Assembly: GCF_001425235.1 (NCBI RefSeq)
Contig: NZ_LMEA01000009.1
Location: forward strand, 124,001-188,000
Origin: Devosia sp. Root413D1
GTDB lineage: Bacteria; Pseudomonadota; Alphaproteobacteria; Rhizobiales; Devosiaceae
Direction: 5' to 3'
DNA: 64,000 nt
In this document: piece after piece, positions 47,170-62,554 of the stretch
Layout: each line of letters opens with the position of its first letter
Position numbering within the stretch: the stretch's first letter is position 1
Notes under the pieces: model-generated
Told to the model about the DNA's origin: nothing
The model's database searches: none
The model's input: only the letters and a program-made list of their open reading frames with translations
Program-made: the position numbers and the translations under genes

Positions 47170-47212
47170 AGCCGGTGGGTGAACCGGTCCAGCGCCGTTT
47201 GACCGTCTAACC

Positions 47213-47230
47213 ATGTTATTATAGTAACAT
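47213..47230. promoter_or_regulatory. Operator-like palindrome, site A of the 47-62 kb motif
   Basis: ATGTTATTATAGTAACAT is symmetric at 16 of 18 positions. It matches the motif found at promoters at 55303, 61009, 61178 and 62393. Here it lies between converging genes with no promoter-proximal gene, so it may be a relic of a lost gene or control a transcript I cannot see. Confidence 0.5.
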
Positions 47231-47347
47231 ACTCTGCGCCGATGCGGTGCGGAGGGGCGGTTGCTTGCAACCGGGCAGAGGTTGGCGATCGAGGCGCGCG
47301 GGACGGAGCGGATGGCACGGTTTGAGCCGCACCGTCCGGTCGCGCCG

Positions 47348-48124
47348 TCAGATCTTGTTGGCGGCCTTCAGTTCGGCGTCGAGCTTGGCCTGGTAGGCCC
47401 GCTTCATCTCTTCATCGGCCTTCGCGCTCACCCCGAAATACACAAAGCCCAGCGCCCGGCGCGAGCGGGTCGGCGAGCGGTTGGGGCTCGCCCAATGCAC
47501 CGTCTTGCAGTCGTGCATCAACAGCATGCCGGCCGGCCCCGGCTGCGCCGCGGTATTGGCGACATCGTGCTCGGTGCCGAAATCGGTGATGCCCTGCGAG
47601 AAGCCGAGGATCTCGGAGCGCCCATGCGGACGCCAGCCCTCGAAGGCATGCGAGCCACGCACATATTGCAGGCACCCGTTCTCGTCGTCGACCGGTTCCA
47701 GTGCCAGCCAGCCGGTGATCGCCTTGGGCGGCGCGATCTTGAAATAGTAGCCGTCCTGGTGCGGCGGGGTCTGCTTGCCGATGCCGGGCGGCTTGTTGAA
47801 ATACTCCATGTTCTGCGCGATCGCCGCCTCGCCCAGCACCGTCTCGGCCAGCTCCTTGATCACCCCGTCCGAGAGCAGCGCCTTGAAGTAGCTGTCGTAT
47901 TTCTCGAGGTACATCATCTGCTTGACCGTCGAGCGGTTGGCCTTGTCCTCGTAATAGACCTCGGTCTCCGACATCTTCGGCACGCATTCGATCAGGAAGC
48001 GGTCAAGCTCGCGGTTGATCTCGGCCATGCGCGCGGCATCGAACAGCGGCCGGAAGGCGATGAAGCCGTCGCGGTCGAAATCTGCCTTCAACTGGCTATG
48101 CGGAATGCTCATTGCAGCACTCAT
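47348..48124 (-). CDS. Phytanoyl-CoA dioxygenase (PhyH) family protein
   Basis: A 258-residue Fe(II)/2-oxoglutarate-dependent dioxygenase of the PhyH family. The metal-binding HxD is in PPHQDGYYF (His122, Asp124), the distal His is in CKTVHWASPNRS (His210) and the 2-oxoglutarate Arg is in the following SPTRSRRAL. Members hydroxylate diverse small molecules. It is divergent from an AraC regulator (133-base gap) and stands at the edge of a sugar-catabolic region, so a sugar-derived or osmolyte-like substrate is possible. The start could also be the second Met (48112). Confidence 0.88.
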   Translation of the reverse strand: MSAAMSIPHSQLKADFDRDGFIAFRPLFDAARMAEINRELDRFLIECVPKMSETEVYYEDKANRSTVKQMMYLEKYDSYFKALLSDGVIKELAETVLGEAAIAQNMEYFNKPPGIGKQTPPHQDGYYFKIAPPKAITGWLALEPVDDENGCLQYVRGSHAFEGWRPHGRSEILGFSQGITDFGTEHDVANTAAQPGPAGMLLMHDCKTVHWASPNRSPTRSRRALGFVYFGVSAKADEEMKRAYQAKLDAELKAANKI

Positions 48125-48257
48125 CCTGCGCTCCTCTCCTCAGGGCCGATGCGGCCTTACCTGATGAAAGGCCACCGCCGCCCTCCCGTCATTCGTGAGG
48201 ATCGGCACGACGTTAGGAAATCCGATTGCTGCCGTCAGCGGGCACTGGCGAGGCGCC

Positions 48258-49040
48258 ATGCCCTGTGACACCGATCAGCTCGAGCTGCGCGACCACCGCT
48301 TCGGTCGGATCAACCGCCGCATGCCGATCGGACCCGTGCAATGGCCATTCCACGATCTGTTCTGGGTGCACGAAGGGCGCGTCGCCATTACATTTCCAGA
48401 GCTCGAGGCCAAACTCGAACTGGTGGCTCCATCAGGTGTGCTGATCCTGCCGGGCACCCAGTTTCAGGGTGCAACACTTGGTGCCTTCGCCACCGCCTCG
48501 ATCTGCCATTTCGCGATGCCCGAAAAGCCGGCGGGGCCAGGCTATGCCCTGCCCAACCCGGACGAGGCGCTGCATCTGCAGAACCTCATCCGCCTCGCCA
48601 TGCACCTCGCCCGCCGCAACCGCCCCGACGAGTTGCCGCGCCGCAAGCGCCTGCTGCTGAGCCTGCTCGACGGGTTCGAACTCACCGGCGCAACCGACAT
48701 CCCGACTGCCGACGAGGACCGGCTGACCATCGCCTGGACCCAGGCCGGGCAGAACCTCCATCGCATGCGCACCCTCGCCGACGTGGCGGCCTTGCTCGGC
48801 ATCTCCGAGAGTGCGTTGCGCGCCATGCATCGCAAGGCCCGGCATACGTCCGCGGGAGAGCACCTGAGGGAACTGCGTCTCACCCGCAGCGAGGAGCTCT
48901 TGGTTTCGACCGACAAGTCGCTTGCGACCATCGCCGCCGAAGTCGGCTACGGCCATGCCGCCACGCTCGCCGCGGCGTTCAGGAAGCGCCGCGGCAAGAC
49001 CCCCGGCCAGTATCGCCACTGGTCCAATCCTTTCGCCTGA
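48258..49040 (+). CDS. AraC family transcriptional regulator
   Basis: A 260-residue AraC-type regulator. It has an N-terminal cupin sensor domain (about 10-110; FHDLFWVHEGRVAITFPE...GVLILPGTQFQG) and a C-terminal pair of helix-turn-helix motifs (about 165-255; LADVAALLGISESALRAMHRKA and KSLATIAAEVGYGHAATLAAAFRKRRGKTPGQYR). I start at ATG 48258 with GCGAGGCG upstream; GTG 48195 would add 21 residues. It precedes the BNR gene by 12 bases, so it may activate that gene and the divergent dioxygenase. Confidence 0.9.
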   Translation: MPCDTDQLELRDHRFGRINRRMPIGPVQWPFHDLFWVHEGRVAITFPELEAKLELVAPSGVLILPGTQFQGATLGAFATASICHFAMPEKPAGPGYALPNPDEALHLQNLIRLAMHLARRNRPDELPRRKRLLLSLLDGFELTGATDIPTADEDRLTIAWTQAGQNLHRMRTLADVAALLGISESALRAMHRKARHTSAGEHLRELRLTRSEELLVSTDKSLATIAAEVGYGHAATLAAAFRKRRGKTPGQYRHWSNPFA

Positions 49041-49052
49041 CCGGAGTTTTTG

Positions 49053-50132
49053 ATGCAGCGTCTTGAAGAGATCACCATCTACGCCAACCCCGACCCGCTG
49101 CTGGTCAGCCGCCAGGCAACCTTCCCGGGCATCGTGCAACTGGCCAATGGCGAGCTCTGCGCCATCTTCACCATCGGCCAGGCCTTCGACGCCGCGGATG
49201 CCCGCGCCCATGTGAGCCGCAGTGCCGACAATGGCCGCACCTGGTCTGCCCCGGTGCGGCTCACCGACCATGAGGTGCGGCCGGAAGAATCCGAGAGCTT
49301 CAAGCCGCTGCTGCTGGCTGATGGCTCGCTCCTCGCCACCGGCTATGTCTTCGTCCGCCCGACCCCGCTGACCCCGGTGGTCGACCCCGAAACCTTCAAG
49401 CTGCTGACCCTGCGCAACAAGACCAGCACCTCCAGCGATGGCGGGCGCAGCTGGAGCGTTCCGGCCTATTTCGACATCGAAGGCCAGCCGCTCGAGCTCT
49501 CCGGCCCCGCCATCCAGCTCGCTTCGGGCCGCATCATCGCCGCCACCGCGCCGTTCCATCTCGGCAAGGATGGCCATGCGGGCTGGATCATCGCCAGCGA
49601 CGACAATGGCAGAAGCTGGCGCAAGCTCTCCGAGTTCTACCGCTCGCCGGCCGGGAACGTCTCGACCTGGGAGAGCCGTATCGCCGATCTCGGCGGCGGC
49701 CGCGTCGCGGTGATCTTCTGGGCCTATGACAATGCCGCCGGCGCCAACCTCACCAACCACATCGCCCTCTCCAGCGATGGCGGCGAGACCTTCGCGCCGG
49801 CGATCGACACGGGCATCCGCGGCCAGGCCTCGAACCTCTTATCGCTTGGCGGTGGCAAGGCGCTCACCATCCATTCGCACCGCGAGGCGCCGGTCGGGCT
49901 GATCGTCCGCCGCGTCGATCTCAACGGAGGTGGTTTCAAGGTGGAGGAGGAGCTCAACCTCTTCGCCGATGCTGCGATGGGCAGCGACTCCGCCGACATC
50001 AAGAAGCAGTTCGGCAGCCTGAAGTTCGGCCAGCCCTCGCTGCTGCGTTTGCAGAACGGGGAAATCTACGCCGCCTGCTGGAGTTTCGAGCAGAGCCAGT
50101 ATGTGATCAAGGGCTATCGGATCGCGCTTTGA
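49053..50132 (+). CDS. BNR-repeat sialidase-fold protein, cytoplasmic
   Basis: A 359-residue six-bladed propeller of the exo-alpha-sialidase/neuraminidase superfamily with at least four Asp-boxes: SRSADNGRTW (about 55-64), SSDGGRSW, ASDDNGRSW and SSDGGETF. There is no signal peptide, so it acts in the cytoplasm. The position of the sialidase F-R-I-P motif reads ATFPGIVQLANGELCAIF (22-39), with the Arg missing. True sialidase activity is therefore doubtful; another glycan or glycoside reaction is likely. A second, related protein lies at 52793, on the other strand. An ATG at 49053 follows CCGGAG. Confidence 0.8.
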   Translation: MQRLEEITIYANPDPLLVSRQATFPGIVQLANGELCAIFTIGQAFDAADARAHVSRSADNGRTWSAPVRLTDHEVRPEESESFKPLLLADGSLLATGYVFVRPTPLTPVVDPETFKLLTLRNKTSTSSDGGRSWSVPAYFDIEGQPLELSGPAIQLASGRIIAATAPFHLGKDGHAGWIIASDDNGRSWRKLSEFYRSPAGNVSTWESRIADLGGGRVAVIFWAYDNAAGANLTNHIALSSDGGETFAPAIDTGIRGQASNLLSLGGGKALTIHSHREAPVGLIVRRVDLNGGGFKVEEELNLFADAAMGSDSADIKKQFGSLKFGQPSLLRLQNGEIYAACWSFEQSQYVIKGYRIAL

Positions 50133-50192
50133 CCGGGCCCTTTCTGAACCGGAGGAGCTGGTTGGGCTCGACGGTAGACCAACCCACCGGCT

Positions 50193-50270
50193 GTCATCCC
50201 AGCGAAAGCTGGGACCCAACTCGCAGCCCGTGCAAGTGGACAATTGGGTCCCAGCTTTCGCTGGGATGAC
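50193..50270. repeat. R1 paired REP-like palindrome
   Basis: GTCATCCCAGCGAAAGCTGGG and its inverted partner CCCAGCTTTCGCTGGGATGAC, almost perfectly complementary over the whole 78 bases. It lies between the BNR gene and the transporter gene at 50364. Confidence 0.9.
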
Positions 50271-50363
50271 ATCGCAGGTGGGGCGATCACAGTGGTTCAA
50301 CTCATCTGTGAAGCGATCCAGAGCGAGGTCGGGAACGGGCGAGTCGGTGGGAGGACAGGTATC

Positions 50364-52637
50364 GTGTCGCGGGTGGAAAGCATCGGCGCAGTTGCGGCCG
50401 AGTATGAGGAGCAGTCGGATTTCGACAAGATCCGGCGCATTCCCTATCTCTACGCCTTCAACATCATCACCGCCGCAGCGCTGCTCTGCACCGTCACCTC
50501 GCCTTTGGCGCTGTTCGCTGCCGAGCTGGGCGTCCCCAAGGACCGCATCGGGCTGATCGGCGGCATCATGCCGTTCGTGCAGGTCATCGCGGTGGTGTTC
50601 CTGCCCATCGTCATGGCCTTCGGCCATCGCCGGGTCGCCGGTTACGCCTCGCTCACCCGCTATCTCTGCCTGTCGCTGATCCTCGTGGCGCCGATGTTCC
50701 AGGGCAACCCGGACATGGTGTTCTGGGTGCTGTTCGCGGCCATGCTGGGCTTTTCGATCTTCCGCACCTTGGCCGAAACAGCGATCTGGCCGTGGTCGCA
50801 GGAATATATGCCGAGCTTCATCCGCGGCCGGCTCACTGGCGGCATCGCACTCGCCTACCTGCCGGTGGCACTGGTGGGTTCGGTCCTGGTGCAGCTCTGG
50901 CTTGATGGCCAGCAGGGCATCGAGCGCTTCTTTCCGGTTTTTGCCATCGGGTTGCTGCTGGGCGTCATCGCGGCGTCGACGCTGTTCGGGCTCGGCGGCG
51001 GCAAGCCGCGCCCCGGCTCGGCCCGCGGCTTCGATGCTATCCGCGCTATGCGGGTGCCGCTGCGCGACGGTAATTTCCTGCTCTATCTGGTCTCCTCGGG
51101 CACGCAGTTCCTCGTCTACACCGTCATCAACCTCTTTATCCTGCTGTTCTTTCGCGAGCGGCTCGGCATCTCGTCGGGCCAGATCGTCCTGATGGCTGCC
51201 TTCATTCCGGTGGGCGCGGCGCTCGGCAGTGTCGCTTCGGGCTGGTTCGTCGATCGCTACGGCACCCGCGCCATCCGCATCACGCTGCAGGCGTTGCAGG
51301 TGGCGATGCTGATTGGGCTGATGTTCGTTACCAAGGATACGCCCGGCACGATCTTCATCGTCGGGCTGATCTTCTTTGTCTTCGGCATGCTGTTCCAGAG
51401 CGCCATCTCGGTGGGCGGCATCTACATGCTCAACTACGTGCCGCCGGCCAAAAAGGAGAGCTACATGACGCTCGCCTATATGACCGACGGCCTGATCGGC
51501 GGCGGCGCCGCCTTCCTTGCCGGCTGGCTGCTCGAACTGCTCGCCAGCAACACCATCGTCATCTCAGGCGTGACGCTGGGCAATTTCGAAACCCTGTTTG
51601 CGCTCAGCGCCGTGATGGTGGTGGTCTCGGCCATCACCTTCGCCATGCTGAAGGAAGAGGGGGCGACCGGGGTGCGCGATTTCCTCGGCCAGTTCGGCCG
51701 CGGCCGGCCGCTCAGCGCGCTCTGGGGCATCCACCGCTATGGCGCGCTGACCTCCGAGGAGCGCCGCCGCGACCTCGCCTATGGCTTCGGCAAGACTCGC
51801 AGCGCCCTGGTCAAGGAGGAACTGATCGCCGCGTTGAGTGATCCCTCGTTCGACGTCCGGCACGAAGCGATCCAGTCGCTCGGCCACCTGCCGCCGAGTC
51901 CCGTGGTGGTGCTGGCACTTGAATCCATGCTCGCCTATGATGGGCTGGTCGAGCTGCAATATGCAGCGCTCAACTCGCTGGGCCGCATCAAGGCGACGCA
52001 AAGCGGCGAGGCCATCGCCCGCTTCCTCGACAGTCCCAACCCGCTGCTCCGCGCCCGCGCCGCCCGCACCCTCGGCGATATCCGGGACGTCAAGCAGCTG
52101 CCGCGCATCCGAACAATGTTGGCCGAGGATCCCGAAATCGACGCCCGGCTGGCGGCGGTCTCGGCACTCGGCAAATTCCGTGACAGCCAGAGCGTCGATG
52201 GGCTGCTGCAGGTCTATCGCGAACTGGCCGGCGATGCAGTGAGCATGGTGGGCGAGCCGCGCAGCAAGGTGCTGCTCCTGGCGCTGGCCAAGATCCTCGA
52301 CTGGGAAGAGAGCTTTTCGCGCGAGTGGCGGCACGAGGAAAAGGTGCTGGGCTACCGCCTGCCGGGTCTGTTCGGCCGCCTCAGCGACGACCTGCGCAAG
52401 CGCTCCAATGCCGAGCACTCCCGCCTGATGATGCAGGCCGCCGCGGCGCTGAGCTCGGGCAGCACCGGCACCGCCTTCCGCGCCCTGCAGGACCTTCGCC
52501 CCTATATCGAGCGCAGTGGCCACCCCGAAGCCGGCATCGTGCTCAAGCTGATGGATGGCACCCGGGATATCGAACAACCGCACCGCGCGCTGCTGATCCT
52601 CCTGGCACTGGCGATGCGGCCGGTGCTGGCGGGGTAG
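50364..52637 (+). CDS. MFS transporter fused to a C-terminal HEAT-repeat-like domain
   Basis: A 757-residue protein from GTG 50364, nine bases after GGAGG. Residues about 25-455 form a major-facilitator transporter with around twelve membrane segments (IPYLYAFNIITAAALLCTVTSPLALFAAE at the start; GAALGSVASGWFVDRYGTRAIRITL as the MFS loop motif). Residues about 480-757 are soluble and contain HEAT/PBS-like alpha repeats: LSDPSFDVRHEAIQSLGHLPPS, LDSPNPLLRARAARTLGDIRD, EIDARLAAVSALGKFRD. The fusion is unusual. Placement next to BNR and amino-sugar genes suggests uptake of a sugar, with the repeats acting as a cytosolic docking or sensing platform. Confidence 0.85.
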   Translation: MSRVESIGAVAAEYEEQSDFDKIRRIPYLYAFNIITAAALLCTVTSPLALFAAELGVPKDRIGLIGGIMPFVQVIAVVFLPIVMAFGHRRVAGYASLTRYLCLSLILVAPMFQGNPDMVFWVLFAAMLGFSIFRTLAETAIWPWSQEYMPSFIRGRLTGGIALAYLPVALVGSVLVQLWLDGQQGIERFFPVFAIGLLLGVIAASTLFGLGGGKPRPGSARGFDAIRAMRVPLRDGNFLLYLVSSGTQFLVYTVINLFILLFFRERLGISSGQIVLMAAFIPVGAALGSVASGWFVDRYGTRAIRITLQALQVAMLIGLMFVTKDTPGTIFIVGLIFFVFGMLFQSAISVGGIYMLNYVPPAKKESYMTLAYMTDGLIGGGAAFLAGWLLELLASNTIVISGVTLGNFETLFALSAVMVVVSAITFAMLKEEGATGVRDFLGQFGRGRPLSALWGIHRYGALTSEERRRDLAYGFGKTRSALVKEELIAALSDPSFDVRHEAIQSLGHLPPSPVVVLALESMLAYDGLVELQYAALNSLGRIKATQSGEAIARFLDSPNPLLRARAARTLGDIRDVKQLPRIRTMLAEDPEIDARLAAVSALGKFRDSQSVDGLLQVYRELAGDAVSMVGEPRSKVLLLALAKILDWEESFSREWRHEEKVLGYRLPGLFGRLSDDLRKRSNAEHSRLMMQAAAALSSGSTGTAFRALQDLRPYIERSGHPEAGIVLKLMDGTRDIEQPHRALLILLALAMRPVLAG

Positions 52638-52657
52638 TTGTTAGGCCGGTGGCTGTG

Positions 52658-52762
52658 GACCCCCACCCTTGATCCCTCCCCGCAAGGGGGAGGGAGACGC
52701 AGACTGTGAAGCCAGTGTTTTCGTCTCCCTCCCCCTTGCGGGGAGGGGACAGGGGTGGGGGT
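52658..52762. repeat. R2 inverted repeat
   Basis: CCCCACCCTTGATCCCTCCC plus GCAAGGGGGAGGGAGAC on the left, and GTCTCCCTCCCCCTTGCGG plus GGGACAGGGGTGGGG on the right. Its arms are the same as the 13321 copy but in inverted orientation. It lies between converging genes. Confidence 0.9.
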
Positions 52763-52792
52763 CAGCCCGCACCAGCGCTTCAGTAGGCGCAG

Positions 52793-53908
52793 CTAAACCC
52801 GCAGCTTCGCCCACCGCACATCGAGCGCGCTCGGCTCACCCGCATAATACACCACCAGCACATCCCCATCCGGCAGGGCCGTCGCCGAGGGCAGGCCAAA
52901 ACTCCACACATCCATGCTGGCCAGCATGTCGCCAGTATCGCTGCTCGCCGCCTGCACCCTGGCATGCGCATAGACCTCGACCTCGCTCGCCGCCGCGAAC
53001 GGCGCATCGATGCTCTGGGCCACCCGGGCGCGGATCGACTGCGACCCGAACCGATCGACCCAGGCCAGCACCACGCGGCCATCGGCCAGCACCGCCGGCC
53101 GCGCCGCCTGGTCGGCAAAGCCGAGATCTTCGGCCGCACTCCAGCTCGCCCCGCCATCGGCGCTGATCCGGCGGTGGATGTTGAGGTAGCTCGCCGTCGT
53201 GGTGTCGTAGGTCCAGGCGAACGAGCCGACCCGGCCATCCGGCGCCACCGCACAGCGGAGGTCCCAGTTGAAAATCTGGCCCGACGGGTCCTCGGCCACC
53301 GTCACCGGTCCGCTCCAGCTCTGGCCCTCGTCGGACGAATGAAAGAACACCGCCCGCTGCAGCCATCTCGAACGATCGAGATAGGTCTTGTTGGTCTCGA
53401 TGCTCATCGCCAGCCGCCCGTCGGCCAACCGCATCAGCGGGCTAGTGAGGCTGGCGGGTCCGATCTCCTGGGGCATCGGCACCGCGCGCCAGTCGCTCCA
53501 GCTCGTACCGTTATCGTCGGAATTGGCGAGGAGGATCACCATCGGCAGGCAGCCCTCGGTCTCGGCATTGAACAAAGGTTTGCCAGGATACGTCGTCCGA
53601 TCGACCCACATCGCGGCGGCCAGCAGCCGCTTGGGAGCGAGTTCGGTGATGTAGCAGAGCTTCAGCGTGCCGCCGATGCCGCGCACCGCGGGCGGCTCGA
53701 ACGGGTAAGTCGGCGCCGACCAGCTGAGCCCGCTATCGGCAGAGCGATAAAAGGCGATCCGCTCCTTGGGCGAATCCTTCTCGTCGCCGGCCCTGAGCGT
53801 TGCCAAGAGCGAACCGTCCGCCAGCGCGGTGACCGACGGAAAGGTCAGGTTGGCGCGATCCGTACCTGGCTCCGCCTTGCCCAGAATTCCCGCTGCGACG
53901 ATCTGCAT
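52793..53908 (-). CDS. Second BNR-repeat sialidase-fold protein, cytoplasmic
   Basis: A 371-residue propeller with Asp-boxes RSADSGLSW (about 55-63), SDDNGTSW, SSDEGQSW and SADGGASW. Like its neighbour at 49053 it lacks a signal peptide and has NLTFPSVTALADGSLLATLRAG (20-41), so T-F-P again replaces F-R-I-P. The shared replacement suggests both proteins belong to one non-sialidase branch. The ATG at 53908 follows AGGGGGATGG. It is on the minus strand just downstream of nagA, with a 201-base gap holding an R1 repeat, and may share its regulation. Confidence 0.8.
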   Translation of the reverse strand: MQIVAAGILGKAEPGTDRANLTFPSVTALADGSLLATLRAGDEKDSPKERIAFYRSADSGLSWSAPTYPFEPPAVRGIGGTLKLCYITELAPKRLLAAAMWVDRTTYPGKPLFNAETEGCLPMVILLANSDDNGTSWSDWRAVPMPQEIGPASLTSPLMRLADGRLAMSIETNKTYLDRSRWLQRAVFFHSSDEGQSWSGPVTVAEDPSGQIFNWDLRCAVAPDGRVGSFAWTYDTTTASYLNIHRRISADGGASWSAAEDLGFADQAARPAVLADGRVVLAWVDRFGSQSIRARVAQSIDAPFAAASEVEVYAHARVQAASSDTGDMLASMDVWSFGLPSATALPDGDVLVVYYAGEPSALDVRWAKLRV

Positions 53909-53971
53909 TGGCCCATCCCCCTGAGCGTTTCGCGATTGAGTTGCGCCGAGCGACCCTGACCCACCCACCGG

Positions 53972-54055
53972 GTCATTCCCGCGAAAGCGGGAACCTCTGT
54001 TTTCTTGGCCTCATGCACCATCCCAAACGGAGTTCCCCGCTTTCGCGGGGATGAC
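53972..54055. repeat. R1 paired REP-like palindrome
   Basis: GTCATTCCCGCGAAAGCGGGAA on the left and TTCCCCGCTTTCGCGGGGATGAC on the right, with a 35-base spacer carrying CTCTGTTT, as in the 11010 copy. It lies between nagA and the BNR gene. Confidence 0.9.
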
Positions 54056-54109
54056 ACCGCGGGTGGTGCAATTCGTCCGTGAAACGCTCTAAGCCGTTGC
54101 GCCAACCTG

Positions 54110-55282
54110 CTACGCGGCGCGCCTGAACAGTGTCTCGCCGCCCACCACCGTCGCTTCGATCTCGAGGGTTTTAGGGTCCAGCACAGCGAAGTCCGCGAGC
54201 TTACCCACTTCGATCGAGCCGATATCCTTTTCCATCCCCAGCACCCTGGCCGGCACGAGGCTGGTGGCGTGGGCGGTGCGAACGAGGTCGGCCCCGACCA
54301 GCTGCACGTAGTTGCGCATCGCCTCGTCCGGGGTCAGCGACGAGCCGCAGAGCCCGCCATTGCGATCGACCACTGCCTTGCCGCGCGCGCTGCGTACCCA
54401 CTGACCCGGATAGAACTCGAACTCCATCTCCTCAGCGCCGGCATATTTGTTGGCGTCGGTTTCGAGGAACACACGGTCGACCGGCAGTTGCGCCAGGATC
54501 TTCATCAGCTTGGGCGAGACGTGGATGCCGTCGCAGATCAACCCCAGCGCCAAGCCCGGTTCGGCCAGCAGCGCATCGGTGAGCGACAGCACGTGCAGCC
54601 CCATATTGCCCGGCTCGGGCTGGCGCATCACGTTGTACATATGGGTCACCGCATCGATGCCCCAGGAGACGTAGCGCGCCACATCATCGGGTGCGGCCTG
54701 GCTGTGGCCGAGATGGATGCTCACCCCGTGCTGCTTCAGCCGCTTGATGAAGGCTTCGGCACCCGGCAGTTCTGGCGCCAGCGTCACCGCCTTGAGCCGG
54801 CCGTTGCTGGCGGCCAGCATCCGCTCGGCCAGTTCGACGCTCGGCTGTTGCAGGTTGCGCGGGTTGTGCGCGCCAGGCGAGGCGAAGACCGGGCCTTCGC
54901 TGTGGATGCCGATGGCGCGCGCGCCGGTGGCCTTCTCGGTCTCGGCCGCGAGGCGCGTCAGCGTCGGTTCCATGTTCTCGGGCGGCAGGCAGCTGATCGA
55001 CGGCAGGAACCCGGTCACGCCGCGCGACAGCAGCAGCGTCGAGTTGTCCGACACGCAGCCGGGCAGGGTGTCGTTGTAGAGATAGACGTCCATGCCGTGC
55101 TGCAACAGGTCGATAATGCCGGGGAACAGCAGCTTGCCGCTGGCCTCGACATCCCGCCAGTCGGCGCCGGTGGCGGCGTCCCGGCTGACGATGCCGGTGA
55201 ACCGGCCATTCTCGATCAACAGATCCTGCCCGATTTCTCCGCCCGGGGTCACCAGCGTGGCGTTACGCCATCTTTGCTTCAC
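54110..55282 (-). CDS. nagA: N-acetylglucosamine-6-phosphate deacetylase
   Basis: An amidohydrolase of 390 residues that removes acetate from GlcNAc-6-phosphate, a central step of amino-sugar use. Active-site stretches match NagA: GIHSEGPVFASPGAHNP (metal-binding Glu), VTLAPE, IHLGHSQA, VTHMYNVM, LICDGIHVSP and the catalytic Asp in FLETDANKYAGAEEM. The first metal motif is IDLLQHG rather than HxH, as in the E. coli enzyme (IDVQLNG). I prefer GTG 55282 as start; ATG 55330 would lie across the promoter. It is divergent from a GntR-type regulator with operator site B between them. Confidence 0.9.
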   Translation of the reverse strand: MKQRWRNATLVTPGGEIGQDLLIENGRFTGIVSRDAATGADWRDVEASGKLLFPGIIDLLQHGMDVYLYNDTLPGCVSDNSTLLLSRGVTGFLPSISCLPPENMEPTLTRLAAETEKATGARAIGIHSEGPVFASPGAHNPRNLQQPSVELAERMLAASNGRLKAVTLAPELPGAEAFIKRLKQHGVSIHLGHSQAAPDDVARYVSWGIDAVTHMYNVMRQPEPGNMGLHVLSLTDALLAEPGLALGLICDGIHVSPKLMKILAQLPVDRVFLETDANKYAGAEEMEFEFYPGQWVRSARGKAVVDRNGGLCGSSLTPDEAMRNYVQLVGADLVRTAHATSLVPARVLGMEKDIGSIEVGKLADFAVLDPKTLEIEATVVGGETLFRRAA

Positions 55283-55302
55283 TTGCAGAATCCATGCTCG
55301 TA

Positions 55303-55321
55303 GTATATTGTCATGATAACC
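55303..55321. promoter_or_regulatory. Operator-like site B between nagA and its divergent regulator
   Basis: On the minus strand GGTTATCATGACAATATAC matches the 61178 site over GTTATCATG. It covers the probable nagA -10 element TATCAT (55313-55318). This is one of five related sites in the 47-62 kb region. Confidence 0.6.
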
Positions 55322-55340
55322 ACCTAACATGCGAATTCAA
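55313..55340 (-). promoter_or_regulatory. Probable nagA promoter
   Basis: -35 TTGAAT (55335-55340) and -10 TATCAT (55313-55318) with 16-base spacing on the minus strand, about 30 bases upstream of the GTG start. Operator site B overlaps the -10. Confidence 0.55.
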
Positions 55341-55446
55341 GGGGAAACATGGCGCCGCAAAGCGCCTCTGTGATCGGCAGGGCGGGCGTGGTGCTATATG
55401 TCGCCGAAGCAAACTTCGGCAATCACCTGTCACGGGAAGACCTGGC

Positions 55447-56442
55447 TTGAGTATTGACCTGTCGCCACGCCACTTGCAGCTCAGAGACATGCTGTTCCGG
55501 CGCTGGAAAACCAACGGCCTCAAAGCCGGGGACAAGATCGAGTCGCAGAACGAGATCGTGAAGTTCTGCGAATTCTCGCTGATCACCGTGATCAAGACGC
55601 TGAAGGACCTCGAGGCCGAAGGGATCATCCGCCGCCAGGTGGGCAAGGGCTCCTTCCTCGTCGAAACGCCGTGGACCGAAGCGCATCATCGCATCGGCTT
55701 CTTTTACAACCGCGACATCGTCGGCGGCGGCATCTTCAACAACGAGTTCTATACCAAGCTGGTGGTGGCGCTGGAAAAGGCCGTGGTCTCCGATGGCCAC
55801 GAGTTCATCCTCGGCAGCTTCACCCACAAGTCGATGCCGACCCATGTGTGGGACGCGCTCGATGTGGTGGTGCTCGCCGGCATTACGCCGGAAACCGAGA
55901 TCGACAAGTTGCCCGAGACCTCGGCGCAGGTGGCGATCATGGACCTCGTCATCGAGGAGCTGCCCTACCACGCCTATCGCATCGATTTCGAACCGGCCTT
56001 CATGGAGATGTTCCGTCAAAACGACGGCAAGAAGCTGAAATACCTCTACCTCAACACCACCATCACCTCGAGCGAGCAGGCCTCGCGCCTCGCCAGCATC
56101 AGGCGCGCCAATGCCTCGACCGCCACCGAGCAGGAGCTGCGCGTCATCTCGGTGAACCAGGAGACCGGCCAGAACGACACGGCCGAACTTGAGGCAGTGC
56201 TCAAGAGCTACAAGCCCGATATCGTCTGCGGCTACATGCACCACAGCTGGGTGCCGGTGATCGCCGCCAAGGCAACCAAGCCGACCAAGGCCTATCGCTA
56301 TTCGCTCGACAATGACGGCCCGAGCTTCAACGTCGACTCCGCCGCCTGGATGCAGCAGGTGCTGGCCGACATCTACGCCAACCTCGAAGACCGCAAACCC
56401 GGCAAGCAGGTCATGAGCATGCCGGCGACGTTTCATCCTTAG
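55447..56442 (+). CDS. GntR-type regulator with LacI/periplasmic-binding-like sensor domain
   Basis: A 331-residue regulator from TTG 55447. The N-terminal winged helix-turn-helix (about 5-75; GDKIESQNEIVKFCEFSLITVIKTLKDLEAEGIIRRQVGKGSF) is GntR-like, and the larger C-terminal part resembles a periplasmic-binding-protein-like effector domain, a combination known from AraR. It is divergent from nagA, with site B in between, so it is a prime candidate for binding the shared 47-62 kb motif and sensing an amino-sugar derivative. The start codon is uncertain; the ORF is open upstream without a plausible family N terminus. Confidence 0.82.
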   Translation: MSIDLSPRHLQLRDMLFRRWKTNGLKAGDKIESQNEIVKFCEFSLITVIKTLKDLEAEGIIRRQVGKGSFLVETPWTEAHHRIGFFYNRDIVGGGIFNNEFYTKLVVALEKAVVSDGHEFILGSFTHKSMPTHVWDALDVVVLAGITPETEIDKLPETSAQVAIMDLVIEELPYHAYRIDFEPAFMEMFRQNDGKKLKYLYLNTTITSSEQASRLASIRRANASTATEQELRVISVNQETGQNDTAELEAVLKSYKPDIVCGYMHHSWVPVIAAKATKPTKAYRYSLDNDGPSFNVDSAAWMQQVLADIYANLEDRKPGKQVMSMPATFHP

Positions 56443-56472
56443 GAGCCTTGCTTAGAGGCTGGTGCGGGCTGA

Positions 56473-56574
56473 CCCCCACCCCTGTCCCCTCCCCGCAAGG
56501 GGGAGGGAGATCAAAACACCGACATCGAAGTATGCGTCTCCCGCCCCCTTGCGGGGAGGGATCAAGGGTGGGGT
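56473..56574. repeat. R2 inverted repeat
   Basis: CCCCACCCCTGTCCCCTCCC with GCAAGGGGGAGGGAGA on the left, CGTCTCCCGCCCCCTTGCGG and AGGGATCAAGGGTGGGG on the right. It lies between converging genes. Confidence 0.9.
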
Positions 56575-56611
56575 CGGCCCGCGCCGGCGCTTCGGTCAGC
56601 CCGGACCAGTG

Positions 56612-57430
56612 CTACCCCAACGCCTTATCAAACGCCGCCATTGACTCATCGGCATAGTTCGCCAGCGCGATCACGTCGGCGCCGACCGAGAGCAGATTAT
56701 ACCCCATGTCGACATACTCGCCGATCAGCTCGCGGTTGGTCACCGTTGCCGCGATCTTCCCGTACTTCCGCGCCACCTGGGCAATGCGCTTGCGTACCGC
56801 CTTGATCTCGTCGTGCTGGATCTCACCCGGGATGCCGCTCGCCACCGAATAGTCGCCGGGGCCGAAGAACAGGCAATCGACGCCGTCCATCTCGGCGATC
56901 GCCTCGAGGTGCTCCATCGCTTCGGGATCCTCGATCTGGTAGCAGGCGAAGCGCTCCTCGTTGGCGGTCTTGAGGTAGTCGAGAAAGCCGACCCGGGTGA
57001 ACTGCGCATCGTTATTGCCGCCATCGACGGCGCGCTTGCCGAGCGGCGCGAACTTGGTGATGTCGCGCACCTTGCGGGCGTCATCGGCATTCATCACGTG
57101 CGGCACGATCAGGCCGGTCGCATCCATCTCATAGCCGCGGATGTAGTCGCTGTAGCTGCCGCGCGACACGCGCAGCAGCGTGTCGACGTCATAGAGCTTG
57201 GCGGCGCGGATCTGGTTTTCCACCTGCTCCCAGGTCGCCGAGGTATGCTCCATGCACAGCCACAGCGCATCCGGCTGCGCCGCGGCGAAAATCTCGGCGA
57301 TCTTGGCGTCGGCGATGTTGAGCTTCAGCACCCGGGCCACCTTGCCCTCGCGGATGGTGCGCAGCACGCGGCTCGGCCGCATGCGGAAGCGCGTCGGGGG
57401 CGTCGCGGCGTAAGGCTGCGTCTGGGACAA
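56612..57430 (-). CDS. HpcH/HpaI family aldolase
   Basis: A 272-residue class II aldolase-like TIM barrel of the HpcH/HpaI (2-dehydro-3-deoxyglucarate aldolase) family, which splits 2-keto-3-deoxy acids to pyruvate plus an aldehyde using a divalent metal. Recognisable parts are VARVLKLNIADAKIAEIFAAAQPDALWLCMEHT, DTLLRVSRG, GLIVPHVMNADDARKV, CYQIEDPEAMEHLEAIAEMDGVDCLFFGPGDYSVASG and the closing MGYNLLSVGAD. It follows the SDR gene by 20 bases and would be the carbon-cleaving step of the pathway encoded upstream on the same strand. Confidence 0.88.
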   Translation of the reverse strand: MSQTQPYAATPPTRFRMRPSRVLRTIREGKVARVLKLNIADAKIAEIFAAAQPDALWLCMEHTSATWEQVENQIRAAKLYDVDTLLRVSRGSYSDYIRGYEMDATGLIVPHVMNADDARKVRDITKFAPLGKRAVDGGNNDAQFTRVGFLDYLKTANEERFACYQIEDPEAMEHLEAIAEMDGVDCLFFGPGDYSVASGIPGEIQHDEIKAVRKRIAQVARKYGKIAATVTNRELIGEYVDMGYNLLSVGADVIALANYADESMAAFDKALG

Positions 57431-57450
57431 GGTGATCTCCTCCGGAGGGG

Positions 57451-58236
57451 TTATTTGGCGGTATAGCCGCCATCGATCGGGATGTTGGTGCCGGTGACAT
57501 AGGCCGAGGCGTCGGAGGCGAGAAAGACGATGACGCCTTTCAAATCGGTATCGTTGGCCATGCGACCCAGCTGGGTGCGGGCGCTATAGGCTTTGACGAA
57601 CGGCGCCGGCTGGTTGTTGAAGAAGCCGCCCGGCGACAGGCAGTTCACCCGGACATTGTCGGCGCCGAGGATGCTCGCCGCCCAGCGGGTGAAGTTGAGC
57701 ATGCCGCCCTTTTCGTAGTGGTAGATCGGCGAGGGGTTGGGCGTCATGTCGGTGCCCTCGTAGTTCGCCATTTCGACCCCGACCATGCCCATCATCGAGC
57801 CGATATTGATGATCGAGCCGGATTTCTGCGCCCGCATGTTGCGGCCGAACAGCTCGGTGATCTTGAACAGCGCCGAGGCGTTGACGCGGAGGCTCCTGTC
57901 GAACGCATCGAGATCATGGGCCCAGCCATCGAGTGCCGAGCGGGTCACCGCGTTGTTGACCAGCACGTCACAGCGGCCGGCCCGGGCGATCACCTCGCGA
58001 TGCAGCGCTTCGATCGAGGCGTCCGACGACAGGTCGAGCTGCAGCGCCGTGACGTCGAGGCCGCGGGCCCGCTCTTCAGCCGCCACCACTTCGAGTTTTG
58101 CGAGATCGCGTGCCGCAATGAAGGTCTGCGCCCCGGCCTCGGCCAAAGCCGCGACGATCTGCCGGCCATAGAGCCCGGCGCCGCCGGTGACCACGGCGAC
58201 CTTGCCTTTGAGCGAGAAGCTTTCGAGTACCTGCAT
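57451..58236 (-). CDS. Short-chain dehydrogenase/reductase
   Basis: A 261-residue classical SDR. It has a GGAGLYGRQIVAALAEAG nucleotide loop (about 18-35), LVNNAV, the catalytic Ser in INIGSMMGMVG and a Y-x3-K in IYHYEKGGMLNFTRW. The C-terminal SDASAYVTGTNIPIDGGYTAK is typical. The insertion MANYEGTDMTPNPSPIYHYEKGG before the active Tyr is shared with the SDR at 59211, so the two are close paralogues with one substrate-binding feature. It probably oxidises a sugar or sugar acid with NAD(P). It lies three bases after the Gfo/Idh gene. Confidence 0.92.
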   Translation of the reverse strand: MQVLESFSLKGKVAVVTGGAGLYGRQIVAALAEAGAQTFIAARDLAKLEVVAAEERARGLDVTALQLDLSSDASIEALHREVIARAGRCDVLVNNAVTRSALDGWAHDLDAFDRSLRVNASALFKITELFGRNMRAQKSGSIINIGSMMGMVGVEMANYEGTDMTPNPSPIYHYEKGGMLNFTRWAASILGADNVRVNCLSPGGFFNNQPAPFVKAYSARTQLGRMANDTDLKGVIVFLASDASAYVTGTNIPIDGGYTAK

Positions 58237-58239
58237 GGT

Positions 58240-59199
58240 TCAGTCCATCTCGCTGAGGAAAACGCGGCGACCGCCTTGTTCGCGGCTTTCGATGCCGGCG
58301 ATCACCAGTTGCATCAGTTCGCGCGTCTCCTCCCACGGCACCGGCGGCTTGCCGGTGCGGAGGTAATCGACGAAGCCGACGAGCTGGGTTCGGAACGCAT
58401 GATAGGTGTCGGTGAACTTGAGCTGCAGCCCGGCGGCGGTGCCGGCCAGCGTCACCATGCCGAAGCCGCCGCCCATATCCTTGGTCACCTGCAGCAGCAC
58501 GTCGATGCCGTCGCGGTGGCGCAGGTGCACGATGTTGGAATTCGCGTCGCCGATATTCTGCACCGACACGTAGCCTGGTCCGGTGATCGGGTAGACCGTC
58601 TCCAGCGCATGGATGCCATAGGCTTCCCATGACTTCGCCATCGTGGCGCTGACATGGCGCAGCTGCCCGAGCGCATGCGTGGCGCGGTGATAGGGCGCGT
58701 ACTCCTTGGCAAAGCGCATCGCCGACGAGCTGATCAGCGGCTTGCCCTCGGCCACCCATTTCGAGAACGTCGCGAGATCGAGCCGGTTGTCGCAGAGCGG
58801 CTTGTCGATGAACACCGGGATGCCGGCCTCGATGAACGGCCGGGCCCGCTCGACATGCTCGAACCCTTTGTCGGTGGCGACCAGCACCGCATCGACCTCG
58901 CCGATAACGTCCTCAGCTCGGCCCGCGATGTTGGGAATATGCGCCACCGCGGCGACCTGCACGGCGTCCGCCGGGTCATCCGTCCACACATGCGTGACCT
59001 TGGCGCCGGGGATACCGAGCGAGCCCGGAGGTTGCTTTCCGATATAGTCCTTGATCACCGGGTAGGGGCAGGCCGCGAGCGCCTTGGCGTCGTAGCTGCC
59101 ATTGATGATGATGCTCCAGGAATAGGGGTGCCCGTTGCCCTCCACCATGCCCAGCATGGCGAGACGGATTTCATCCCGGGTGATCGGCAGAACGCTCAT
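58240..59199 (-). CDS. Gfo/Idh/MocA family oxidoreductase
   Basis: A 319-residue NAD(P)-dependent sugar oxidoreductase-like protein. The N-terminal Rossmann domain is atypical at the GxGxxG loop (LAMLGMVEGNGHPYSWSI), but the second-half signature VDAVLVATDKGFEHVERARPFIEAGIPVFIDKPLCDN matches the family's EKP motif as DKP. The C-terminal alpha/beta domain (about 135-319) closes the site. I start at ATG 59199; the TTG two codons upstream is less likely. It is between two SDR genes in the same operon. Substrate unknown. Confidence 0.83.
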   Translation of the reverse strand: MSVLPITRDEIRLAMLGMVEGNGHPYSWSIIINGSYDAKALAACPYPVIKDYIGKQPPGSLGIPGAKVTHVWTDDPADAVQVAAVAHIPNIAGRAEDVIGEVDAVLVATDKGFEHVERARPFIEAGIPVFIDKPLCDNRLDLATFSKWVAEGKPLISSSAMRFAKEYAPYHRATHALGQLRHVSATMAKSWEAYGIHALETVYPITGPGYVSVQNIGDANSNIVHLRHRDGIDVLLQVTKDMGGGFGMVTLAGTAAGLQLKFTDTYHAFRTQLVGFVDYLRTGKPPVPWEETRELMQLVIAGIESREQGGRRVFLSEMD

Positions 59200-59210
59200 C
59201 GACAAATTCC

Positions 59211-59978
59211 CTACCAGGCGGTCCAGCCGCCATCGACATTGAGACAGTGCCCGGTGATGTAGCTCGCGGCATCGCTGAGCAGGAACGCCGTCGGTCCGGC
59301 CATTTCGTCCTGCCGGCCGATCCGGCCGAGCATGGTCTGGCGCGCCAGGTTCCCCATGAACTCGGCATTGTCCTGCGTCGCCTGGTGCGGGTAGGGGCCG
59401 GGCGCCACGGCGTTGACGCGGATGCCGGCCGGGCCGAAATGGCCGGCCATGTAGCGCACCATCTGGATCATCCCGGCCTTGCCGGCGCCGTACTCGATCG
59501 GGTTGGGCGCCATGTCGCCCGGGTAGTTCGCCGGGTTCGGCGCCACCACGCCATACATCGAGGCATAGAGCACCATCGCGCCGCCAGGGCCCATATGCCT
59601 GGCTGCCTCGCGCGCGAGGAGGAAGCTGCCGGTGAGGTTCAGCCGGTTGGTGCGGTCGAAATCCGCCGCGGTCAGCTCCTCGAAGCGCTTGCCGGTGGAG
59701 CCGAAGGTGGCGTTCACCACCCCATGCAGCGCGCCGAACTGTTGCGCCGCGCCGCGTACCGCCTTGAGGATCGAGTCCTCGTCGCCGATGTCGAGCGGCA
59801 ATGCCAGCACCCCGCCGCCGAGCCCCTTGAGCTCGGCCTCGGCTGCCGCCAGCCGCTCCGGGTCGATGTCCGCCAGCACTACATTGGCGCCCTCAGCGGC
59901 GAGCAACTTGCTCACTGGCAGCGCCAGGTAGCCCGCGCCACCGGCCATCAGAATGGTCTTGCCACCAAAACCAGGCAT
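59211..59978 (-). CDS. Short-chain dehydrogenase/reductase
   Basis: A 255-residue SDR. The nucleotide loop is AGGAGYLALPVSKLLAAEG (about 13-31), with NATFG in place of NNAG, catalytic Ser in LYASMYGVVAPNPANYPGDM, Y-x3-K in IEYGAGKAG, and the end YITGHCLNVDGGWTAW. Its ANYPGDMAPNP insertion parallels that of the SDR at 57451. Probably it handles a related sugar intermediate. It starts on the last base of the upstream Gfo/Idh stop codon (TGATG-type overlap). Confidence 0.9.
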   Translation of the reverse strand: MPGFGGKTILMAGGAGYLALPVSKLLAAEGANVVLADIDPERLAAAEAELKGLGGGVLALPLDIGDEDSILKAVRGAAQQFGALHGVVNATFGSTGKRFEELTAADFDRTNRLNLTGSFLLAREAARHMGPGGAMVLYASMYGVVAPNPANYPGDMAPNPIEYGAGKAGMIQMVRYMAGHFGPAGIRVNAVAPGPYPHQATQDNAEFMGNLARQTMLGRIGRQDEMAGPTAFLLSDAASYITGHCLNVDGGWTAW

Positions 59979-60979
59979 CAGAGCCTCACGATCCGTTTTT
60001 CGAGCCAGGATTGCTTGGCGGCCAGCGCCACCCGCAGGTTGTCACGCGCGTCGTCGAGCGTCGCCAGCCAGCACGGCTTGCCCTCGATCGCATCGAGCAT
60101 GGCGTCGGCCTGCATGCGGAAGCGCGCCTGATGCGCTTCGGTCGGCACCAGCCCCTGCATGAAGTCGCGCTCGTCCTGCCATTTGCCGCTGTCGTCGTCG
60201 GCGAATTTCAGCGTCGAATGCTCGAGCATCAGGTTGCCCTTGGTGCCGATGAACTCGAAGCGCGCAATATTGGGCTTCTGGAACTGGTTGATGGTGACGT
60301 TCGCCATGGCGCCGCTCTGAAAGCGGATCGAGACGAGGCAGGTGTCCTCGGTATTGGTGCCCTCGAGCACCAGCCGGTCATAGAGGCAGCTGACATCGGT
60401 CGGCTTGCCCATCAGCCAGATCAGCATGTCGAACAGGTGGCTCGCCGCATCGAGAATGGCGCCGCCGCCCATTTCCGGGCGGGCGTAGTAGGTGCGCTGG
60501 AAATCCGGTCGATATTTCGGGAATTCCTGCGAGGAGTTGAGATAGGCGAGCCGCAGCGTGCCGATCTTGCCGTCGAGGATCTGCTGGCGCAGCGTCACCA
60601 CTTCATCGGCGACCCGCCGCACATAGCCGACCCGCGCCACGAGGTTCTTGGAGTGGACCAGCGCCAGCGTCTCGTCGACCTCGTCCATGGTCACCGACAG
60701 CGGCTTCTCGACGAGGAAGTTGAGTCCGGCCTCGGCGCAGCGCCGCATCAGCGCCACATGAAAGTTGGCCGGGGCACAGATCACCGCGAGGTCGAAACTG
60801 TTGAGGTCGGCTTCGCTGATATCGGTATAGGTCTCGGTGATGCCGAACAGCGCCTTGGCTTCATCGCGGCGCCCGGCGTCCGGCTCGACGATCGCCAGCT
60901 GCACCCGCCCCGTCAGGCTGTAGCCCTTGAGGTGGCGCCGGCCAATGCCGCCGCTCCCCACGATAAGCACCCGCTTCAC
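59978..60979 (-). CDS. Gfo/Idh/MocA family oxidoreductase
   Basis: A 333-residue enzyme with a standard NAD(P)-binding loop, VLIVGSGGIGRRHLKGY, and the motif GLNFLVEKPLSVTMDEVDE (EKP with the active-site Lys). SRGxYDAASHL-like features appear in ILDAASHLFDMLIWLMG, with the catalytic-type His. I use GTG 60979, eight bases after TGAGGGGG, in place of the open ORF's earlier ATG at 61003. It is the first gene of a leftward operon Gfo/Idh - SDR - Gfo/Idh - SDR - HpcH aldolase, controlled by operator site C. It probably oxidises a hexose or amino sugar derivative. Confidence 0.9.
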   Translation of the reverse strand: MKRVLIVGSGGIGRRHLKGYSLTGRVQLAIVEPDAGRRDEAKALFGITETYTDISEADLNSFDLAVICAPANFHVALMRRCAEAGLNFLVEKPLSVTMDEVDETLALVHSKNLVARVGYVRRVADEVVTLRQQILDGKIGTLRLAYLNSSQEFPKYRPDFQRTYYARPEMGGGAILDAASHLFDMLIWLMGKPTDVSCLYDRLVLEGTNTEDTCLVSIRFQSGAMANVTINQFQKPNIARFEFIGTKGNLMLEHSTLKFADDDSGKWQDERDFMQGLVPTEAHQARFRMQADAMLDAIEGKPCWLATLDDARDNLRVALAAKQSWLEKRIVRL

Positions 60980-61008
60980 CGACGCTGCCCCCTCACCCGA
61001 CAACCAAG

Positions 61009-61031
61009 TATGTTGTTATGCTAACGGCATA
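61009..61031. promoter_or_regulatory. Operator-like site C of the sugar operon
   Basis: Core TGTTGTTATGCTAACGGCAT. On the minus strand it sits between a perfect -35 TTGACA (61040-61045) and the operon start, covering the spacer and the likely -10 (TAGCAT). This is a typical repressor position. Confidence 0.65.
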
Positions 61032-61177
61032 TTTAGTGCTGTCAATCGCGGCTGAGGGTCATCAGCTGCACAAAAAGTCGAAAGCCGTTGAGCTCGCACC
61101 ATGATCCGTGATGCGGCGGTTCCGCCAGACGAACCACAGTCGAACGCACTGTTTGACTCACTTGACTCCAAGAAAAG

Positions 61178-61201
61178 CATGTTATCATGCTAACGGTATA
61201 T
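61178..61201. promoter_or_regulatory. Operator-like site D upstream of the epimerase gene
   Basis: Core TGTTATCATGCTAACGGTAT, 32-55 bases upstream of the ATG at 61233. Two TTGACT boxes (61153-61158 and 61162-61167) precede it, so the site covers the expected -10 region of the rightward promoter. It is nearly identical to site C over CTAACGG-AT. Confidence 0.65.
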
Positions 61202-61232
61202 TTAACCGATCAATGCAGGGGGATGCATTCGA

Positions 61233-62018
61233 ATGGGTACAAAACCAAAGGTCCTCGTGACCGGCGCCAGCGGTCTGATTGGCGGCCTCGTCATCCGCGA
61301 CCTCTCCGACAAATACGAGTTCAGCGGCTTGAGCCGGCGTGTCGTCCCGGGGATCGTCCACACCCAGGCCGAGATCGCCGACCCGGTGGCCATCCGCAAG
61401 GCGTCCGCGGGCATGGACATGGTGCTGCACCTGGCGGCCGAAACGCACGAGTATGACGACTGGGACAAGGTGATGCAGAACACCATCGGCGGCACCCTCA
61501 ACATGTTCCGCGCTGCACAGGAGGCCGGCGTGAAGCGGGTGGTGTTCATGAGCACCGGCAGCACCATGTGCGGCTATGAATGGTACGAGGGCTCGCCCTA
61601 CGGCAAGCTCGCCGCCAACCAGTTGCAGGCCCTGCCGCCGGGCGAAAAACTGCTCGACTACAAGGATCCGCCGCGCCCCGACAGCTTTTATGGGGTCGGC
61701 AAGCTGTTCGGCGAGAATACCGGCCGGCTGTTCTCCGATCGCTACGGCATGTCGGTGATCTGCATTCGGCTCGGCGCCGTGCTGCCGAGCGACCAGCCCG
61801 AACTGATCCGCCATTACCCCGGCTACCTCTCGCAGGCCGACGCGGTGCAGATGGTCGACAAATGCCTCGATGCCCCCGAAAGCGTCCGCTTCGACATCTT
61901 CGACGCCATCTCCGAGAACAAGCGCCGCTGGCGCGACACCTCGCACGCCAAACAGGTCATCGGCTGGCAGCCGACGGGTTCGGCCGACAAGTACGACATC
62001 AGCAAGCTGAGCGTTTGA
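61233..62018 (+). CDS. NAD-dependent epimerase/dehydratase family protein
   Basis: A 261-residue extended SDR: VLVTGASGLIGGLVIRDLS (GxxGxxG, about 7-25), HLAAETHEY, a catalytic Ser/Thr-Y-K set in FMSTGSTMCGYEW and RPDSFYGVGKLFGE, and CIRLGAVLP. It resembles uronate dehydrogenase and related sugar enzymes that oxidise hexuronates or epimerise sugars. It is divergent from the Gfo/Idh operon, and both flanks carry the shared operator (sites C and D), so all belong to one regulated set. Confidence 0.85.
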   Translation: MGTKPKVLVTGASGLIGGLVIRDLSDKYEFSGLSRRVVPGIVHTQAEIADPVAIRKASAGMDMVLHLAAETHEYDDWDKVMQNTIGGTLNMFRAAQEAGVKRVVFMSTGSTMCGYEWYEGSPYGKLAANQLQALPPGEKLLDYKDPPRPDSFYGVGKLFGENTGRLFSDRYGMSVICIRLGAVLPSDQPELIRHYPGYLSQADAVQMVDKCLDAPESVRFDIFDAISENKRRWRDTSHAKQVIGWQPTGSADKYDISKLSV

Positions 62019-62116
62019 GCGGCCGAAACCGCCAATCGTGCAGCGGCTGCCTTCTCCCACAACAAGGGGAGAAGGCGAGAGGTGTCTTACTCTCCATCTC
62101 GCCACTCCCACCGGCC

Positions 62117-62255
62117 GTCATCCCGGCGAACGCCGGGACCCACTGCTCGGAGGCCTGGGCAGGCACGAACCGTGCTGATCTGTCACGGCAAGGTCGGCGG
62201 GGTCCGCGCCGGTGCAACCTTCGGAGCACTGGGTCTCGACTTTCGTCGGGATGAC
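62117..62255. repeat. R1 REP-like pair with extended spacer
   Basis: GTCATCCCGGCGAACGCCGGGA on the left and CTTTCGTCGGGATGAC on the right, about 95 bases apart instead of the usual 35. The right half is diverged. Confidence 0.65.
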
Positions 62256-62374
62256 GGCCGTTGGGGTGGGTTTCATCCAGCCCGACTGCGACCAAGCCCA
62301 TCCCCCCAAAAATCCCCGGAAATCCTGACTTTGTTCCGTCTGGCGAACCTATTCGCCGGTGTCGCAGCCGTCGC

Positions 62375-62415
62375 TTGACCACCCCAAACTGATATGTTGT
62401 TATGTTAATGACATA
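62375..62415 (+). promoter_or_regulatory. Promoter with operator-like site E
   Basis: -35 TTGACC (62375-62380), 17-base spacer, -10 TGTTAT (62398-62403). Site E (62393-62415; core TGTTGTTATGTTAATGACAT) overlaps the -10. It drives the 5' region of the FadR-type regulator. Confidence 0.6.
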
Positions 62416-62554
62416 TGCAGGCCACCAGGGGGAATTGGTGACTCAGCGGGGCGATATCGTCGATCGGATGCGCGCTGGCCGCGCCCCGCTCCGCCCGTCC
62501 GTCAACCGCTTCCACCATCCGTCGATGCCCACTTGTTCACAGCGAGCATGGCAG

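Follow-up and report, generated by a model that had tools for sequence, protein, structure and literature searches.

Which protein, if any, reads the AT-rich motif that recurs five times among the sugar-related genes of Devosia sp. Root413D1 is the question raised by a 64,000-nucleotide stretch of its DNA (C9:124001-188000 of the 5.85 Mb genome; the window). A first-pass annotation took the motif for the operator of a new sugar regulon, placed four of the sites at the promoters of nagA, a Gfo/SDR/aldolase operon, an epimerase gene and a FadR-type regulator gene, and named as binder either a GntR/LacI hybrid encoded at 55447 or the FadR-type protein encoded at 62639. The sites are most probably operators of one local regulon with the GntR-type protein P0002 (55447..56442, + strand) as binder and repressor, a reading to which a probability of roughly 0.8 is assigned on the comparison of sequences. 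The binder can be decided by operator counts with and without each candidate regulator across relatives, sampled here as 19 genomes of the genus, 136 of the family and 397 order-wide.

All five sites are present where the first-pass annotation had put them, and the gene contexts of the four promoter sites are as claimed. S1 (47213..47230, unstranded) is a perfect 18-bp palindrome, ATGTTA-N6-TAACAT. The remaining sites are on the + strand: S2 (55304..55329; core 55307-55320) lies between nagA and the GntR-type gene, S3 (61009..61034; core 61012-61025) before the Gfo/SDR/Gfo/SDR/HpaI operon, S4 (61178..61203; core 61181-61194) before the epimerase-family gene, and S5 (62393..62418; core 62396-62409) upstream of the FadR-type gene and transporter genes. 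The description of the sites as near-identical was overstated. The exact core GTTATCATGCTAAC has its sole window copy at 61181-61194; the cores at 61012, 47215 and 55307 differ from it by 2, 3 and 3 bases, and the core at 62396 (GTTGTTATGTTAAT) falls outside the matches at up to 3 mismatches and shows 4 differences by eye.

The 22-26 base motif is specific genome-wide, unlike the 14-base core. Within the window, the core gives 6 matches against 1.18 expected, a number reached in 0 of 100 shuffles. Genome-wide at up to 3 mismatches, it yields 92 matches versus 75 for its reversed control and was dropped as a genome-wide probe for being too unspecific. By contrast, the longer motif TATGTTRTTATGYTAAYGRYATAT has only 3 matches in the 5.85 Mb genome at the same tolerance (61009, 61178 and 62393), with 0 for the control. 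A 26-column position weight matrix, trained on 19 sites from other genera and families, scores 4 or more at only seven places in the 123 kb scanned (C9:104001-227000), and the remaining rows above 4 overlap these places. Five are S1 (16.7 and 16.3 at 47206 and 47212), S2 (22.1), S3 (35.9), S4 (41.1) and S5 (36.6). Two lie past the window end: S6 (73660 on the window scale, L029:10660-10685; score 19.2), between an amidohydrolase gene and a divergent unknown gene, and S7 (76513 on the window scale, L029:13513-13538; score 15.4), before a class III aminotransferase gene. In 100 Markov-1 resamplings, a mean of 0.01 places score 12 or more and the top single score is 17.0; S1 and S7 are therefore individually within chance and rest on conservation, not on score.

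The motif is conserved in relatives. At up to 3 mismatches, TGTTRTYATGYTAAYGRYATAT gives 30 matches in 10 of the 19 genus genomes (control 0) and 88 matches in 45 of the 136 family genomes, compared to 13 control matches. In relatives, the motif is seen again at the promoters of orthologous genes: nagA, gfo1, the epimerase gene and the transporter side. In 18 larger stretches from relatives, used for gene context, copies are found between gfo1 and the FadR-type gene, before the epimerase-family gene, between nagA and an SDR-P0002 gene pair, and before an RraA-type gene that occupies the place of a missing FadR gene. In five genus genomes (L105-L109), this RraA-type gene stands instead of the FadR-type gene between the operator and the transporter, and both genes are present in G057 and G185. 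The 26-mer of S2 is identical in L038, L074, L077, L108 and L110, with nagA-side operators also present in other genera. G004 and G007 have counterparts of both S6 and S7, and the aminotransferase site extends to G057, from another genus. In G185 (family f51), the cluster is complete, and operators stand at gfo1, an M81-type gene and nagA. No such cluster context surrounds the motif in L112 and L116 (3-mismatch matches) or L177 (2-mismatch match). Random placement of the motif, or a lack of conservation at orthologous promoters, had been named in advance as speaking against a regulon and was looked for; the conservation at orthologous promoters strongly supports a shared operator that defines a local regulon.

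Presence and absence across these genomes associate the motif with P0002. In the family, 27 of 136 genomes have a P0002 orthologue (called at E 1e-30 or better), and the motif at up to 2 mismatches is present in 26 of these 27 versus 3 of the 109 others (Fisher p 1.7e-23). In the genus, the motif is found in 10/10 genomes with P0002 and is absent at up to 3 mismatches from 9/9 without it (p 1.1e-5), while a FadR orthologue is present in only 5 of the 10 motif genomes (p 0.033). The other five (G001, G003, G005, G008 and G018) each have 2-3 motif copies, with the RraA-type gene in place of a close FadR orthologue; the FadR-like proteins of these five do not exceed 36% identity, or are absent at 1e-20. 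Model R1, built from 17 sites outside the genus and counted at E 10 or less, gives 33 matches across the 19 genus genomes, all in the 10 with P0002 and 0 in the other 9. Of these, 31 are at cluster genes and the other 2 are on the P0002-bearing contig of G002; one stray-looking match (G008:C45:116475) stands before an M81-type gene adjoining PhyH. Order-wide, P0002 is found in 9 of the 397 genomes, and family f15 accounts for six of the nine. Sites in f15 and f51 were located through the P0002 protein and not through motif likeness. All six f15 genomes carry TGTTATCATGCTAACA, which contains the exact core in a longer palindrome, approximately 0.8 kb upstream of P0002, and wider stretches from three of them place it between nagA and SDR-P0002. 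These three stretches show neither a Gfo operon nor a FadR or AraC gene of the cluster. FadR-like proteins in f15 reach no more than 33-37% identity and are encoded on other contigs, or are not found.

That the FadR-type, NanR-like protein P0001 (62639..63382, + strand) binds the five sites as the NanR of this lineage is improbable. Its gene is placed 3' of S5, the protein belongs to the FadR subfamily of GntR regulators and is closest to NanR (194.2 bits, cut-off 260), and its orthologue, called in the family at E 1e-45 or better, accompanies the motif in 22/22 genomes; however, the five genus genomes and the six f15 genomes retain the motif without a close FadR orthologue, and the FadR-type promoter has a conserved box of its own. 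P0001 was rejected as binder of the five sites on this presence/absence and on the box, and is not likely to be that binder. Of the two candidates named by the first-pass annotation, the protein encoded at 55447 is thus favored by co-occurrence and that encoded at 62639 is disfavored. The closest named relatives of P0001 are from Devosia species, with 98% identity to D. insulae.

The box, TTTGGTCGACCAAA (62555..62568, unstranded), was not part of the first-pass annotation. It lies 71-84 bases before the FadR-type start codon and is proposed as the site of P0001 itself. It is single copy at up to 2 mismatches in the 123 kb, is found upstream of 20/20 FadR orthologues examined (13 exact, and 5, 1 and 1 with one, two and three mismatches), and has no copy at up to 2 mismatches in 22 fetched loci without the FadR gene. 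Two 1-mismatch matches are seen in L103 (398 and 10378), away from the FadR gene, and a conserved TTTGACACCA stretch comes after the box. UxuR/GntR-like operators of the FadR subfamily are described as TKGT/ACMA boxes with 2-nt spacing (PMC4494728, section 10). TTTGGTCGACCAAA fits this consensus as described there, but is a second operator and not the five-site motif; thus, the two regulators appear to use different DNA. The operator of NanR, the sialic-acid repressor, is given as TGGTATAW direct repeats (PMC4494728, section 5). No pairs of these repeats are found at up to 1 mismatch each in the 123 kb, and they were rejected as the operator. The likeness to NanR has two sides. P0001 is nearest to it and the cluster encodes NanA-like, NagA-like and sialidase-like (BNR) proteins; by contrast, P0001 scores 194 bits under the cut-off of 260, the repeats are absent, its own box is a palindrome, and the five sites go with P0002.

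Also quite unlikely is that both regulators share the sites or that an AraC-type regulator (48195) binds them, even if all three regulator genes sit within the cluster in this genome. Shared binding is opposed by the same FadR presence/absence and own-box arguments. For the AraC-type protein, three operator-bearing f15 genomes show no homologue within 36 kb surrounding P0002, and the motif is palindromic, which is unusual for sites of AraC-type proteins. The idea that the motif is mere conserved promoter sequence (-10 regions) or chance is very improbable: the sites do overlap likely -10 regions and the bare core is unspecific, but the palindrome-bearing motif is much longer than a -10, is missing from the 9 of 19 genus genomes that also lack P0002, exceeds its reversed controls in genus and family, and stands at unrelated genes with only cluster membership in common.

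P0002 itself has a GntR-type N-terminal helix-turn-helix (HTH) and a weakly LacI-like C-terminal part. The Pfam GntR HTH is matched in 24/24 P0002 orthologues (best E 4.9e-6), with P0002 at 26.1 bits, just below the curated cut-off of 27. Consistent with this assignment, phmmer matches P0002 to the GntR structure 3by6 (E 4.7e-4) and a PDB profile search with the 24 orthologues has a GntR HTH as its sole match (E 0.0054). Similarly to AraR-type GntR regulators (e.g., B. subtilis AraR), P0002 has an N-terminal GntR HTH and a possible LacI-like C-terminal part, and its system includes local catabolic operons and an operator at its own promoter. Unlike AraR, the C-terminal relation of P0002 is weak and Leu45 is found instead of the contacting Arg. 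The operator also differs: GTTA-N6-TAAC is a palindrome with GT and AC, but these are 10 bases apart; in the GntR-family consensus NyGTNxACNy, the spacing is 2-3 in the FadR and 4 in the HutC subfamily. An Arg of the recognition helix contacts G in FadR and AraR, as listed in Table 1 of PMC4494728. Leu45, which by eye aligns with this base-contacting Arg, is invariant in 24/24 orthologues and may accompany the unusually wide GT-N10-AC operator.

The placement of the sites suggests how P0002 would act. In a promoter test of 32 sites (-35 with at least 5/6 bases, spacing of 15-19, and -10 with at least 3/6 on the core), all 23 sites not associated with nagA pass, each with a TTGACN -35 and a -10 overlapping the core, compared to 2.4% of random positions. 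Both strands pass at 13 of the 32 sites; inside the window no single site does so. S3 overlaps the -10 of a leftward TTGACA promoter, S4 has a -35 (TTGACT) at 61162-61167, and S2 is spanned by a weaker TTGAAT-N16-TATCAT, as judged by eye. Operators positioned over the -10 make repression likely. P0002, presumably dimeric, is predicted to bind GTTATCATGATAAC, a palindrome, together with its flanks. With the operator on the spacer and -10 of TTGACN promoters, RNA polymerase would be blocked by the bound protein; a single operator would span two divergent promoters in several relatives. P0002 is proposed to be released by an intermediate of the catabolic pathway, probably a sialic-acid-like compound or an amino sugar on which NagA and the SDR/Gfo enzymes act. 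Members of the predicted regulon are nagA, the P0002 gene, the Gfo/SDR/aldolase and epimerase-family genes, the FadR-type gene together with the transporter genes that follow it, and two units past the window end. Through the box at 62555-62568, the FadR-type protein may in addition regulate its own gene independently, and perhaps the transporter.

Several observations weigh against P0002 as the binder or temper the tests that point to it. Regarding specificity, the bare core barely exceeds its control genome-wide, and model R1 genome-wide misses S1, S2, S6 and S7. Most training sites outside the genus were gathered by likeness to S3-S5 and, thus, the matrix test is only partly independent. 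Regarding co-occurrence, the FadR orthologue tracks the motif too (22/22 genomes versus 7/114 without the orthologue; p 1.2e-19), the shared ancestry of the genomes means that Fisher values overstate independence, and operator genomes without a FadR orthologue may come down to three lineages (part of the genus, G105 and f15). The motif is found at 2 mismatches without P0002 in G026, G074 and G133. In G074, the cluster is present on a contig that stops before nagA/P0002, and no gene of the cluster appears in the 18 kb fetched for the G026 match; G105, with P0002, has a 3-mismatch site only. Regarding the promoters, 5 of 9 nagA-side sites, S2 included, fail the test and the other 4 are marginal (TTTACA). 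The test is also lenient, with only 3/6 for the -10, spacing of up to 19 and random controls unmatched for AT content, so that its weight is on the -35 box. Regarding the protein, the LacI-like C-terminal signal is weak (hhalign gives 44.8% in a comparison with 12 LacI-type proteins from this genome), Peripla_BP_4 is matched in 1 of the 24 orthologues (E 0.0013), and the single-sequence structure prediction has a predicted local distance difference test score (pLDDT) of 34.

S1 is a site without a gene. It lies between two convergent genes (GNAT and PhyH) with no gene downstream, and a promoter-like TTGACC-N15-TATAGT overlaps it; S1 is unchanged in G004 and G007 although the flanks differ. In G008 and G185, an M81/MlrC-type gene is beside PhyH with an operator directly upstream, the G008 copy being matched by Pfam M81 and MlrC_C. 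Close M81 orthologues are present in G001, G003, G005, G008 and G018 (68-100% identity) and absent from G000, G002, G004, G007 and G010 (best 44-47%), and no trace of the gene is detected in the window at E 1. A site kept without a gene here, and with an M81-type gene beside PhyH in relatives, points to an operator left after gene loss; S1 probably once served an M81/MlrC-type gene that has since been lost, and in this genome it has no gene to act on.

The genes of the cluster are as follows. The nagA-like gene (54110..55330, - strand; N-acetylglucosamine-6-phosphate deacetylase family, 194 bits, cut-off 225.65) probably has its true start at a GTG near 55282. Genes for Gfo/Idh/MocA, SDR, Gfo/Idh/MocA, SDR and HpcH/HpaI aldolase proteins (56612..61003, - strand) form an operon, as judged from their spacing, and the NAD-dependent epimerase/dehydratase family gene (61233..62018, + strand) has Azf as its closest NCBIfam model (135 bits, cut-off 400). 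The NanA-like protein scores 256 bits, under the cut-off of 281, and the best PDB matches of the lyase of the cluster are N-acetylneuraminate lyases. Sialidase-like BNR proteins (weak matches) and a family-5 ABC transporter are also encoded. An MFS transporter fused to HEAT repeats (50244-52637) adjoins two BNR-repeat proteins, and this unit has no operator above the matrix threshold. With this gene content, the "sugar regulon" of the first-pass annotation is plausible, and the substrate is likely, though not proven, to be a sialic-acid-like compound or an amino sugar.

Behind the FadR-type gene, a circularly permuted solute-binding protein of family 5 is encoded (63458 to past the window end; L029:458-2080). 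Its residues 25-264 align with the second half of DppA-like proteins and its residues 317-538 with the first half. Orthologues across the cluster relatives are 52-98% identical; thus, the permutation is no assembly error.

A broader proposal, which we hold only tentatively and at less than even odds, is that P0002 founds a separate GntR subfamily that lacks the usual Arg and reads GTTA-N6-TAAC with an offset TA step. It would form a two-layer circuit with a NanR-like regulator using its own box, and the two would jointly control an undescribed sialic-acid-like/amino-sugar pathway fed by a transporter with the permuted binding protein. In the literature, no paper was found joining NanR, sialic acid, operator and Alphaproteobacteria, and nothing joining sialic acid, anhydro, oxidoreductase, GntR and MocA. 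As far as their listings indicate, papers on Devosia and sialic acid are unrelated, and among the matches listed for Devosia regulons and transcription factor binding only a review turned up. In the 20 of 28 papers listed for three motif strings, two strings have no occurrence and the third is found only in unrelated-looking papers. For circularly permuted solute-binding proteins, five papers were listed.

The proposed regulon is new but of an ordinary kind. It offers a testable system, with a named candidate repressor and its operator, for soil bacteria that have been little studied; the roles of two neighboring regulators are separated, and the operator flags more genes of an uncharacterized pathway.

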